A DNA stretch of 64,000 nt. It comes from Clostridia bacterium (lineage in GTDB: Bacteria; Bacillota; Clostridia; Christensenellales; Borkfalkiaceae). Below the pieces are notes generated by a model. It made no database searches. It had not been told where the DNA came from and was given only the letters and a program-made list of their open reading frames with translations. The DNA is taken from contig JAJQDC010000062.1 of the NCBI GenBank assembly GCA_021202395.1, forward strand, positions 124,001 through 188,000, read 5' to 3'. Positions within the stretch are counted from its first letter, which is position 1, and each line of letters begins with the position of its first letter. A program made the position numbers and the translations under genes. Below, one piece after another: positions 5,841 to 51,512 of the stretch.

Positions 5841-5902
5841 ATGGCAAAATTGCACTTTAAAGAATATGCTGATAATGAATTATTTTAAAGGAGTATAAAT
5901 TT

Positions 5903-6412
5903 ATGTCCGTTCCGCTTACAGCAAATAAACCATTTCCTTCAACAAAAAATATTACGTCGGACGCTTACAGTTTAAGGGTAATTTCTTCTGCATACGCAAC
6001 GCCTACCGGGGAACTGAACACAATTTTACAATATATTTACCAGACGTATTTTTTTAAAGCAAAGGGGTATAAAGATATTGCAGACAGCATACAGGGCATT
6101 GCCATTGCAGAGATGACTCATTTAAGCGCATTGGGCGAATGTATGCTTGCCCTTGGCGGTGCTCCCGTTTATACGTCCTGCCCGCCTGCGGCTTATAATT
6201 TTTATTCAACAAAGTATGTTACATATTCACGCAGCCTTATTATGATGGCGGAAGATGACATCCGTGCAGAAAAACATGCCATACGTACATATGAGCGCAT
6301 GTTATGCCTTCTGAAAAATGAGAACGTGAAAGAGCTTATAGAGCGCATTGCAGAAGACGAAAGACTGCATTTAAAGGAGTTTGAAAATATTTTATGTAAA
6401 CTTAAAAGTTGA
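5903..6412 (+). CDS. Ferritin-like diiron/dimanganese domain protein
   Basis: A 169-residue all-helical protein of the ferritin-like superfamily. Metal-ligand motifs are visible in order: E in GELNTILQY (about residue 38), E-x-x-H in AEMTHL (about 73-76), E-x-x-H in RAEKHAI (about 120-123) and D/E-x-x-H in EDERLHLKEF. The pattern fits a dinuclear metal site as in rubrerythrin, manganese catalase or the spore-coat CotJC group. It lacks the rubredoxin-like Cys4 domain of rubrerythrin. The site AAAGGAG precedes the ATG. It stands alone, divergent from the sigma factor. A role in peroxide protection or iron handling is inference. Confidence 0.8.
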   Translation: MSVPLTANKPFPSTKNITSDAYSLRVISSAYATPTGELNTILQYIYQTYFFKAKGYKDIADSIQGIAIAEMTHLSALGECMLALGGAPVYTSCPPAAYNFYSTKYVTYSRSLIMMAEDDIRAEKHAIRTYERMLCLLKNENVKELIERIAEDERLHLKEFENILCKLKS

Positions 6413-48486: not shown

Positions 48487-48515
48487 TTGAAATTTTTTTC
48501 AACAGATGATATAAT
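48487..48515 (+). promoter_or_regulatory. Promoter of pfkA with small inverted repeat
   Basis: TTGAAA (48487-48492), 17-base spacer, TATAAT (48510-48515). TTGAAA-TTTT-TTTCAA overlaps the -35 box and could be an operator. The ~100-base leader to the ATG holds one hairpin (48563-48569 with 48573-48579). Confidence 0.75.
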
Positions 48516-48623: not shown

Positions 48624-49586
48624 ATGAAAAGAATAGGCTTGCTTACCAGTGGCGGCGATGCCCCCGGCATGAATGCGTGTATAAGGGCTGTTGTGCGCAG
48701 CGCGCTTTATTTCGGTATAGAAGTATACGGTATAGAGCGCGGTTACCAGGGACTTATAGATGACGAAATGGTATCTATGGATATGCGTTCCGTTTCTGAT
48801 ATAGTCCAGCGCGGCGGCACAAAACTTCGTACTGCGCGTTGCCTTGAAATGCTTACCAAAGAAGGGCAAAAAAAGGCGGTAAAAACACTTGAAGCGCACG
48901 GTATAGAAGGGCTTGTCGTTATCGGCGGCGACGGTTCGTTCCGCGGCGCAAAGTGCCTTTCAGAAGAATACGGCATTCCAACAATAGGTATTCCCGGCAC
49001 AATAGACAACGACCTTGAATATACTGATTATACTTTAGGTTTTGACACGGCGGTTAATACCTGTATAGACGTTATTAACAAACTCCGCGACACAATGACT
49101 TCGCACGAAAGAATTTCTGTAGTAGAAGTTATGGGAAGGCGTTGCGGCGATATAGCGCTTTACGCAGGCATTGCCAGCGGTGCAGAAATTATTGTTGTAC
49201 CGGAAGTTGTTTTTGACCTTGACGACATTGTTATGAAAATTAACCGTTCAAGGGCAAACGGCAAGCATTCAAATATTATAGTAGTGGCAGAAGGCGTTTG
49301 CACCGCAGAAGAATTTGCTAAGCAGCTTCAGTCGGTAACAACTTATTCTGTCCGCCCCACAACAATAGGGCATATACAGCGCGGCGGCTCGCCTTCTATG
49401 GCAGACAGGATGCTTGCCGCACAGTTCGGCAACAAGGCGGTTCGCCTTTTAAACGACGGCATTGGCAACAGGGTAGTAGGCATACATAAAAACGAGATCA
49501 TCGATATGGATATTATCGAAGCCGTAAACATGAAAAAGAAATTCAACTACGAGCTTTACGAAACTTTACAGGTGATTTCTATGTAA
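48624..49586 (+). CDS. pfkA: ATP-dependent 6-phosphofructokinase
   Basis: A 320-residue glycolytic kinase (fructose-6-phosphate to fructose-1,6-bisphosphate). Conserved parts are the start MKRIGLLTSGGDAPGMN, VVIGGDGSFRGA, GIPGTIDNDL with the catalytic Asp, and ISVVEVMGRRCGDIAL. The glycine in GGDGS and PGTIDND marks the ATP-using rather than pyrophosphate-using type. A GGAGGA site precedes the ATG. A terminator separates it from the second sugar kinase. Confidence 0.98.
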   Translation: MKRIGLLTSGGDAPGMNACIRAVVRSALYFGIEVYGIERGYQGLIDDEMVSMDMRSVSDIVQRGGTKLRTARCLEMLTKEGQKKAVKTLEAHGIEGLVVIGGDGSFRGAKCLSEEYGIPTIGIPGTIDNDLEYTDYTLGFDTAVNTCIDVINKLRDTMTSHERISVVEVMGRRCGDIALYAGIASGAEIIVVPEVVFDLDDIVMKINRSRANGKHSNIIVVAEGVCTAEEFAKQLQSVTTYSVRPTTIGHIQRGGSPSMADRMLAAQFGNKAVRLLNDGIGNRVVGIHKNEIIDMDIIEAVNMKKKFNYELYETLQVISM

Positions 49587-49648: not shown

Positions 49649-50572
49649 ATGATATTAAGCATCTGTTTAAGTCCGTGCATAGACGTAAATATTGAAGTTG
49701 ACAGCCTTAGCGTCGGCAGGACAAATAAAATACTGAATAAGCGTATTTTTTATACGGGTAAAGCAATTAACGCCGCACGCGGCCTTAAACGGCTGGGCGC
49801 CGACGTGTACGCAACAGGCTTTATGTACGAAGATAACGGCAGGCTGTTCGAGCAGGAACTGCATTACGAACAGGTACCTTATAAATTTGTATGGTGCGAA
49901 GGCAGGGTGCGCGAAAATTACAAATTCGTAGATAACAAATCGATGCTTACCGAAGTAAACGATATCAGCCCTGAAATTTCAGAAGAAAAAAAGCTGGAAC
50001 TTCTGGATGTGGTAGAAAACCTTTCAAAAAATTGTGAAGCCATGGTTTTATCCGGCGGGCTTTCCAAAGATATGAAGGCTTCTTACTACGGCGACATTTT
50101 ACGCAGGGCGGGAAGTAATACCTTAAAAGTTGTAGACAGCTACGGCGACCGTCTTTTAGAAGCTTTAAAGTGCGGGGTAGATCTTGTTAAACCCAACCTT
50201 GACGAATTGCAGAGCACGTTGGGAATAAAGGTAACTTCTAAAGAAGAAGCTTTGGCAGGCTGTTACGAACTTTTAAATATGGGTGCTAAGCGCGTTCTTT
50301 TGTCTCTGGGCAAAAAGGGAGCGATAATTACTAACGGCACCAATAATTATTATTGTAAAAGTAACAATGTAGCGATGAATTCTACCGTAGGTGCGGGCGA
50401 CGGAATGGTGGCGGCGGCAACCAATGCTCTTGCCAAGGGCGCCCCATTAGAAGAAGTTTTGCGCTGTGGCGTTGCGGGCGGAACGGCAGCCGTAACTACG
50501 CCCGACAGCATTACGTTTATAAAAGAAAAATACGACGAAATTTTATCGGAAATATCAGTCGTAAAGATATAA
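49649..50572 (+). CDS. PfkB-family sugar kinase, 1-phosphofructokinase/tagatose-6-phosphate kinase type
   Basis: A 307-residue ribokinase-fold kinase. The start MILSICLSPCIDVNIEVD is typical of the FruK/LacC group. The anion hole and catalytic Asp lie in STVGAGDGMVAAATN; VKPNLDEL is the family loop. The usual PGGK(G/A)xN substrate motif reads TGKAINAAR, i.e. the second of two glycines is replaced. No fructose PTS gene is near. The ATG is only 30 bases behind the pfkA terminator and has no ribosome-binding site; an overlapping TAAAAT looks like a -10 box but would start inside the gene. It could provide a second phosphofructokinase activity. Confidence 0.88.
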   Translation: MILSICLSPCIDVNIEVDSLSVGRTNKILNKRIFYTGKAINAARGLKRLGADVYATGFMYEDNGRLFEQELHYEQVPYKFVWCEGRVRENYKFVDNKSMLTEVNDISPEISEEKKLELLDVVENLSKNCEAMVLSGGLSKDMKASYYGDILRRAGSNTLKVVDSYGDRLLEALKCGVDLVKPNLDELQSTLGIKVTSKEEALAGCYELLNMGAKRVLLSLGKKGAIITNGTNNYYCKSNNVAMNSTVGAGDGMVAAATNALAKGAPLEEVLRCGVAGGTAAVTTPDSITFIKEKYDEILSEISVVKI

Positions 50573-50598
50573 AAAGTTTATACATAGGAGTTTTAAAA

Positions 50599-51063
50599 AT
50601 GTGGAATAAAGACAGCGTTTTAGGTATGCTTGAAGGCATCCCTGCAGAAGATAAACAGGCTATACAGAATACTATAGACAGCGACAAATACATAAACAGC
50701 GAAATATTAAACTGCGACCTTTGCGGCAGCTACGCATCGTTTTGCGAGTGCTGCCCTTTGCACAGCCCTACTATCTGTGCACAGATGTATGCAGAGTACA
50801 GAACAGCATATAAAGGGGGCAGGGTTCCCGCATTAAGCCGTTATTCCTTCAGGGATGAAAAAGCCATGCAGCAGGCTATTGACGAAGATAAATATAAAAA
50901 GAGCGTAGAAGCTGACAGCGACCTTTGCGGCAGTTACGAAGCCTTTTGTGAAAACTGCGTTAAAAACAGTGCTACGCCCTGTGCAGACGCTTACTTAAAG
51001 TACATAAGTTCAAAAAGAAATATAAGGCTTTGCACAGTAAAATATACAAAAAAAGCTGATTAA
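50599..51063 (+). CDS. Small cysteine-rich protein with two copies of a C-x6-C-x2-C-x7-C motif
   Basis: A 154-residue protein that I do not recognise. It consists of two similar halves. Each has an acidic-basic helix start (IDSDKY / IDEDKY) and then DLCGSY-x2-FCE-x-C-x5-(T)-x-CA-x2-Y-x2-Y. The shared cysteines are Cys42, 49, 52, 60 and Cys110, 117, 120, 128; both copies also keep Gly, Tyr, Phe and Glu between them. Four spaced cysteines per copy suggest one metal site each (zinc or iron-sulfur); this is inference. Cys39, Cys51 and Cys145 are extra. No signal peptide, so it should be cytosolic. A GGAG site precedes the start, 26 bases after the sugar kinase gene, and a terminator follows. Confidence 0.8.
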   Translation: MWNKDSVLGMLEGIPAEDKQAIQNTIDSDKYINSEILNCDLCGSYASFCECCPLHSPTICAQMYAEYRTAYKGGRVPALSRYSFRDEKAMQQAIDEDKYKKSVEADSDLCGSYEAFCENCVKNSATPCADAYLKYISSKRNIRLCTVKYTKKAD

Positions 51064-51076
51064 AATTTATTACGTT

Positions 51077-51114
51077 AAAACAGCGCAGCAAAAATATAGC
51101 TACGCTGTTTTTTT
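51077..51114 (+). terminator. Terminator of the Cys-rich gene
   Basis: AAAACAGCG (51077-51085) pairs with CGCTGTTTT (51103-51111) and runs into a T tract; inside the loop AGC/GCT can extend it. Confidence 0.8.
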
Positions 51115-51131
51115 GTTATAAAAAAATTAAT

Positions 51132-51152: not shown

Positions 51153-51159
51153 GTCTTAA

Positions 51160-51255
51160 TGGAGCTGCTAACCGAGATTTGTAAGGAGCAAAGCGACGGA
51201 ATAGCAAGAGGGCGCAGCCATCGCAGCGTCCATATTTCGGTGATACGGTTAGCAG
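51160..51255 (-). repeat. tRNA-Thr-derived, CCA-ended repeat, copy B
   Basis: 96 bases, reading on the minus strand from CTGCTAACCG to CGGTTAGCAG plus CTCCA. These ends form a perfect 10-bp stem. The last ~23 bases repeat the 3' end of the adjacent tRNA-Thr (T loop, 3' T stem, acceptor strand and CCA) with one inserted base. The middle ~70 bases are not tRNA-like. It differs from copy A at only one base within the unit (51211 region, G versus A). Confidence 0.8.
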
Positions 51256-51265
51256 ATAAAAACAG

Positions 51266-51293: not shown

Positions 51294-51298
51294 TAAAA

Positions 51299-51394
51299 TG
51301 GAGCTGCTAACCGAGATTTGTAAGGAGCAAAGCGACGGAATAGCAAGAAGGCGCAGCCATCGCAGCGTCCATATTTCGGTGATACGGTTAGCAG
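51299..51394 (-). repeat. tRNA-Thr-derived, CCA-ended repeat, copy A
   Basis: Second 96-base unit, same ends and middle as copy B, 139 bases from it (unit plus terminator hairpin). The 3' end sequence TGGAGCTGCTAACCG (plus strand) is shared by both copies and the tRNA gene, which follows 138 bases further on. A short open frame on each strand runs through the repeats but has no coding character. Confidence 0.8.
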
Positions 51395-51404
51395 ATAAAA
51401 TATT

Positions 51405-51436: not shown

Positions 51437-51512
<76 letters not shown>

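Follow-up and report, generated by a model that had tools for sequence, protein, structure and literature searches.

At the 3' end of a phosphofructokinase gene group in a 64,000-nucleotide stretch of Clostridia DNA (the whole stretch analysed, referred to as the window), a short open reading frame, gene X, encodes a protein that carries a four-cysteine motif twice. The locus raises the question of whether this is a real gene, whether its product belongs to a described family, and what such a protein could do next to genes of sugar metabolism. The features concerned are the following.

48487..48515, + strand: candidate promoter ahead of pfkA, TTGAAA-17-TATAAT with TG before the -10 element (consensus scan only)
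48624..49586, + strand: pfkA, ATP-dependent 6-phosphofructokinase
49649..50572, + strand: pfkB-type hexose kinase (1-phosphofructokinase-like), with a 26-nt gap to X
50587..50590 (approximate), + strand: probable RBS, GGAG (by eye)
50599..51063, + strand: gene X, two-repeat four-cysteine protein of 154 aa (open reading frame, self-comparison and relatives)
50599..50646, + strand: N-terminal segment of X, MWNKDSVLGMLEGIPA, with the MW[ND]...LL motif of the genus
50647..50826, + strand: repeat 1, helix-like Q-x3-ID-x-DKY-x2-S followed by the core C-x6-C-x2-C-x7-C
50851..51030, + strand: repeat 2, laid out as repeat 1 (60-residue alignment to repeat 1); its end overlaps the tail
51019..51060, + strand: basic tail at the C-terminus, NIRLCTVKYTKKAD; divergent version of (K)xIRIAVARRK (loose motif only)
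51066..51122, + strand: inverted repeat followed by T7, just 3' of X; likely terminator (repeat search and sequence)

The open reading frame of X is a real gene. It begins with ATG, with GGAG ahead of it, and its product is 65% identical to the G032 protein and 58% identical to the L001 protein. Since pS was 0.86, with synonymous differences saturated, compared to pN values of 0.23 (X and G032) and 0.27 (X and L001), X is under purifying selection. The inverted repeat that follows the gene is absent from the output of the terminator scan, which had a loop limit of 8.

The two halves of X (repeat 1, DLCGSYASFCECCPLHSPTICAQMYAEY; repeat 2, DLCGSYEAFCENCVKNSATPCADAYLKY) are 43% identical across 60 residues (E 5e-16), and their local alignment score of 132 compares to a maximum of 48 in 2000 shuffles. 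The motifs D-L-C-G-S-Y-x2-F-C-E-x-C and C-A-x2-Y-x2-Y and the spacing C-x6-C-x2-C-x7-C are present in both halves exactly as reported in the initial annotation of this DNA. The likeness continues about 25 residues upstream of the first cysteine (Q-x3-ID-x-DKY-x2-S), a part of the repeat absent from that annotation. Compared as DNA, the 60-codon halves share 62% identity, and the duplication is thus not a recent one.

Strict retention of Gly, Tyr, Phe and Glu between the cysteines had been taken to suggest a defined metal-binding fold that is present twice. Comparison with relatives upholds this for the glycine and the aromatic residues, but the glutamate varies, as does the serine (CGxYAPFCxxC). 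The positions kept in relatives are the aspartate before the first cysteine, the glycine after it, the aromatics and the four cysteines. A defined, probably metal-binding Cys4 domain occurring twice fits this conservation; however, the duplication is a late trait of one clade and not part of the fold. Single-repeat forms, which the initial annotation had proposed to look for, exist and are the majority: 26 of the 35 proteins in the first set have one core (25 in the genus and that of G041), and nine have two. All nine doubled forms fall in one clade, with a support of 1.0 in a concatenated dnaE+pfkA+pfkB tree of 34 genomes (the doubled forms G1107, G1109, G1137 and G1136 were left off this tree), so that a single internal duplication is the simplest history. 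The X proteins of L001 and G312 are identical, and the two are probably the same genome. The duplication is the least important feature of the X family.

The core is conserved in eight families of the order. The 42 repeats aligned (alignment A2: 8 genus repeats and 34 of the 42 order repeats) share the pattern Q-x3-[LI]D-x2-K[WYF]-x2-S-x5-D-x-C-G-x4/5-C-x2-C-x7-C-A-x-A. Every one of the 42 rows has the four Cys, one Lys and one Asp, an invariance that applies to the rows used only; Gln, Ser, Gly, Pro, Ala and the first Asp each occur in at least 90% of rows. A second alignment, A1, holds 30 of 44 repeats and omits G041 and 13 others; repeat 1 of G003, which has N for D before the first cysteine, was omitted from A1 and A2, as was repeat 2 of L001, which has no Gly. 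The four-cysteine motif itself is missing from none of the 35 proteins of the first set and from none of the 42 order hits inspected. A regular expression for C-x5-C-x2-C-x7-C matched 36 of those 42; G232, G346, G166 and G409:C30 were off-spacing merely through an extra neighbouring cysteine, and the true deviants, both in the last spacing, are G095 (x8) and G154 (x6). The first spacing is one residue longer in the genus (x6) than in the rest of the order. The domain as a whole is about 45–55 residues long.

Relatives of X were found in 34 of the 61 genomes of the first set and in 75 of the 93 genus genomes (53 of the 61 that are at least 90% complete with low contamination). Using a profile of 30 repeats, we detected the core in 98 of 396 genomes of the order, representing 27 of 142 genera and families f1, f3, f6, f10, f19, f24, f28 and f32. 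Of the 391 genomes in a class sample, a wider profile matched six: that of the window, another four from the order (two with a shortened form, in family f31), and one in which the match is a 22-residue stretch with an in-frame stop. The same profile matched three of the 299 genomes in a phylum sample, namely the window's own genome and two with chance-like stretches of 22–26 residues. No credible member beyond the order was seen in the class (391 genomes) and phylum (299 genomes) samples, and the domain appears to be restricted to one order of Clostridia, as far as sampled.

The initial annotation had not recognised a family, and database searches agree: X has no credible match in Pfam, NCBIfam, PHROGs or PDB sequences. 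Profiles built from the genus and order alignments, as well as the members themselves, gave chance-level matches only against the same four libraries. The best PHROG match (E 0.0062, in 1 of 42 members) is not credible, and no phage, plasmid or viral-contig relatives of X were found. A clear match to a zinc-ribbon or iron-sulfur family had been named as the result that would speak against a new family; none was over the cut-off in the Pfam scans. When X and the sets of 30 and 42 repeats were scanned, the matches to Pfam zinc-finger models all stayed below threshold, and each was confined to between one and three members. Among the entries listed by literature searches for the cysteine spacing and the family peptides, nothing was relevant and the exact peptide was not found; one listed entry, PMC7295025, concerns fungal Zn2Cys6 proteins, whose six-cysteine motif differs from that of X. 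AlphaFold models were uninformative: the window protein with L001 (2-row alignment) reached a pLDDT of 43.3, too low to use, and four repeats (4-row alignment) reached 51.5, with a helix, a cysteine loop and a helix predicted at a confidence that carries no weight.

The domain family is real and previously uncatalogued. Its general kind, a small Cys4 module, is familiar, and its modular tail is unusual. The family is missing from the large libraries searched and is spread through a Clostridia order with small genomes; with this order-wide distribution, many unannotated proteins gain a common core.

Within the genus, the position of X is fixed. Each of the 34 Cys-domain loci examined in the genus has X immediately behind pfkB and in the same orientation, 19–111 nt away (median 64 for 37 genes, including three without the Cys domain). 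The block dnaE-pfkA-pfkB-X is visible in most of these loci; in G002, G013 and G015, spurious longer antisense ORFs cover pfkA/pfkB, and both genes are present by tblastn. Outside the genus, the neighbours of the X domain are not conserved (40 loci examined). Separately, we observed a steep gradient of identity inside the pfkA-pfkB-X gene group: across the genus, pfkA is 93–98% identical to the window copy, pfkB 54–86%, and X far less.

Most genus copies of X end in the basic peptide (K)xIRIAVARRK. A strict form of this tail, R-[IV]-[AG]-x-A-[RK]-[RK] near the C-terminus, is found in 30 of 35 proteins, and a looser motif in 34 of 35, the tail of the window protein included. An extra acidic stretch extends beyond the motif in G015, G016 and G025. 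In most genus members, core and tail are joined by a variable, acidic, often Pro-rich linker, and only the last ~12 residues are basic; the window's subgroup (G000, G032 and L001) has almost no linker. A profile of the tail (E <= 1) matched in 70 of the 93 genus genomes, mostly in X frames, with a few of the weakest matches in other frames. The profile misses copies whose tail is divergent or missing, among them those of the window, G312 and G032, and at least five more genomes (G1096, G1097, G1111, G1118 and G1129) have the Cys domain without a tail match at E <= 1. A second tail match in G031 (contig C34) was discarded, since it lies at a contig edge and is a truncated, near-identical duplicate of the X of the same genome.

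To follow the slot behind pfkB in genomes without the Cys domain, we searched eight genus genomes lacking a Cys-domain match for pfkB, and five had a close pfkB. In G1099, the gene right after pfkB encodes a 60-aa protein that is linker and tail alone. In G035 and G229, the corresponding gene encodes a protein of 214–216 aa with an N-terminal hydrophobic helix (by eye) and the same tail. None of the three proteins has a Pfam match above the cut-off. In G194, pfkB is kept while the Cys domain and the tail are both gone, indicating that the X gene is dispensable. In G1101, the contig edge is reached at the end of pfkB. The remaining genomes have distant pfkB-like matches only (G017 and G005) or none (G1093). 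Thus, the tail occupies the slot without the Cys domain in at least 3 of 93 genus genomes. Because it is kept behind pfkB in these three, the tail is the constant part and the N-terminal module the exchangeable one, and a constant tail with swapped heads at one locus offers a direct, cheap handle on its putative partner.

Other architectures are found elsewhere in the order, and across the order what follows the core carries a net positive charge in 40 of 42 hits. A K/A/P-rich basic tail follows the core in f6, f32, f28, f10, parts of f24, and one member each of f1, f3 and f19. A fused domain of roughly 130–160 residues follows it in most of f3, most of f19, parts of f24, and G331 and G409 of f1. 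G401, G392, G409:C30 and G154, from other f1 genera, have a short end peptide that resembles the genus tail by eye. Since tails outside the genus mostly differ from the genus peptide, a single docking partner is not general. The fused domain also occurs in large Glu-rich proteins of the order that have no Cys core (open frames of 5 of 10 loci), so it says little about X. The relatives' copies of this domain matched no Pfam or NCBIfam family over the cut-off; an assignment to DUF5655 (PF18899) was rejected, as the match was found in 1 of 10 genomes with E 0.129, below the cut-off, and on a contig other than that of the core. The window's own genome has the fused domain as well (L175, G000:C8:7603-8058), without the core and behind a Glu/Ala/Pro-rich stretch.

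From these comparisons, we tentatively favour, as a possibility, a metal-binding core carried on a tethered basic docking tail; metal binding, linker disorder, tail docking and the partner are the parts of this proposal that we infer. X would be a small cytoplasmic module made from the gene behind pfkA and pfkB. Its four cysteines would most likely hold one structural Zn2+, with a [4Fe-4S] cluster as the alternative. Three points favour zinc: the tiny size of the domain, its CxxC and the lack of a match to Fe-S profiles; an Fe-S centre is possible, the organism presumably being an anaerobe. In the genus, the module would sit on an acidic, probably disordered linker ending in (K)xIRIAVARRK, and this C-terminal peptide would dock onto a constant partner. 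That partner may be a protein, plausibly one encoded in the same gene group, or a polyanion; a nucleic acid or a ribosome could fill this role. The N-terminal module would supply a second activity. This module is a single Cys domain in most relatives and a doubled one in the window's clade, in which the window's own subgroup has lost the linker; it is missing in G1099 and replaced by a putative membrane helix in G035 and G229. FtsZ and SSB likewise combine a folded module, a variable acidic linker and a conserved short C-terminal peptide. However, the X peptide is not known to be related to theirs, and in X the folded module itself is swapped between species. Zinc ribbons and treble clefs resemble X in having four cysteines within ~20 residues and a conserved Gly beside the first, but they have two knuckles whereas X has one CxxC pair.

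Several other explanations overlap in part with a metal-binding core on a docking tail. X could bind nucleic acid or the ribosome: a metal-stabilised core would recognise RNA or DNA, and non-specific affinity would come from the basic tail. The net basic segments after the core, often K/A/P-rich and histone H1-like, point in this direction, and one short form weakly resembles the histone H1-like nucleoproteins (HC2) through its tail (E 0.0044, below the cut-off). However, that likeness is one of tail composition, the window protein has no such tail, and low-complexity basic stretches are also found on unrelated proteins of these genomes, such as a glycogen synthase-like ORF. Furthermore, the genus linker is mostly acidic, with basic residues confined to its end. 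We regard nucleic-acid or ribosome binding as somewhat unlikely. A [4Fe-4S] domain like the C-terminal cluster loop of EndIII/MutY, which could serve an anaerobe as a sensor of redox state or iron, is suggested by the spacing: the loop of endonuclease III has C-x6-C-x2-C-x5-C, also with four cysteines and the same start, to which C-x5/6-C-x2-C-x7-C is close, and CPL follows the third cysteine in repeat 1 of the window protein. The last spacing is 7 in X, not 5, and X has neither a match to the EndIII_4Fe-2S profile (PF10576), which spans 17 loop positions, nor an attached glycosylase domain. With this profile (E <= 1), places were listed in 25 of 31 genomes and none was the X locus, the place in the window's own genome being on another contig, C14; PF10576 was also not among the listed Pfam matches of X or of the 30 and 42 repeats. 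On balance, a domain of this type is unlikely. The exact cluster-loop spacing did not occur in the entries listed by a literature search for it.

X could also regulate the two phosphofructokinases encoded just upstream, or be a subunit of them; in favour of this is its constant slot behind pfkB, shared by the 34 loci of the genus and the three replaced forms. However, the slot may be a mere operon end, and since the pfkB link is absent outside the genus, the Cys domain is no general Pfk partner; we consider this role very doubtful. The eight regularly spaced cysteines of the window protein might also recall a disulfide-rich surface or spore protein, but the N-terminus (MWNKDSVLGM...) has no signal sequence by eye and X sits among genes for cytoplasmic enzymes. 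The combination of a CxxC and invariant charged residues is commoner in metal sites, and a disulfide-rich protein is hardly credible here. In its most far-reaching form, the docking-tail proposal would have a new metal-binding domain family of one bacterial order mounted, in this genus, on a new C-terminal docking peptide. The peptide would bring exchangeable modules to one constant partner, which might be the phosphofructokinases. The modules would be a Cys domain, a doubled Cys domain, nothing, or a membrane anchor, and together they would form a modular scaffold that responds to metal or redox state and is linked to glycolysis. We rate this picture as quite improbable.

Additional observations were made around these loci. 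The glycogen synthase-like protein mentioned above (L041 of G024, cluster 15) has a long K/A/T/P-rich N-terminal extension, which suggests that such stretches are common on unrelated proteins in the lineage. A second small Cys-rich protein, CxxCMxCExCDxDPxKICDNCGKC, distinct from X, recurs near the pfk region in several members of the genus; it is found at L214 on the reverse strand (5867-6058, flipped coordinates) and downstream of X in L047 (G025), L056 (G006) and L063 (G014). In the window, two direct repeats of 104 nt (51158-51261 and 51297-51400; 99% identical) lie downstream of X. Each includes the 3'-terminal 15 nt of the neighbouring tRNA-Thr (TGGAGCTGCTAACCG, at 51160 and 51299), and the tRNA-Thr (51437-51512) has its own copy at 51437. 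The 104-nt repeats look like remnants of an insertion or duplication at the end of the tRNA.
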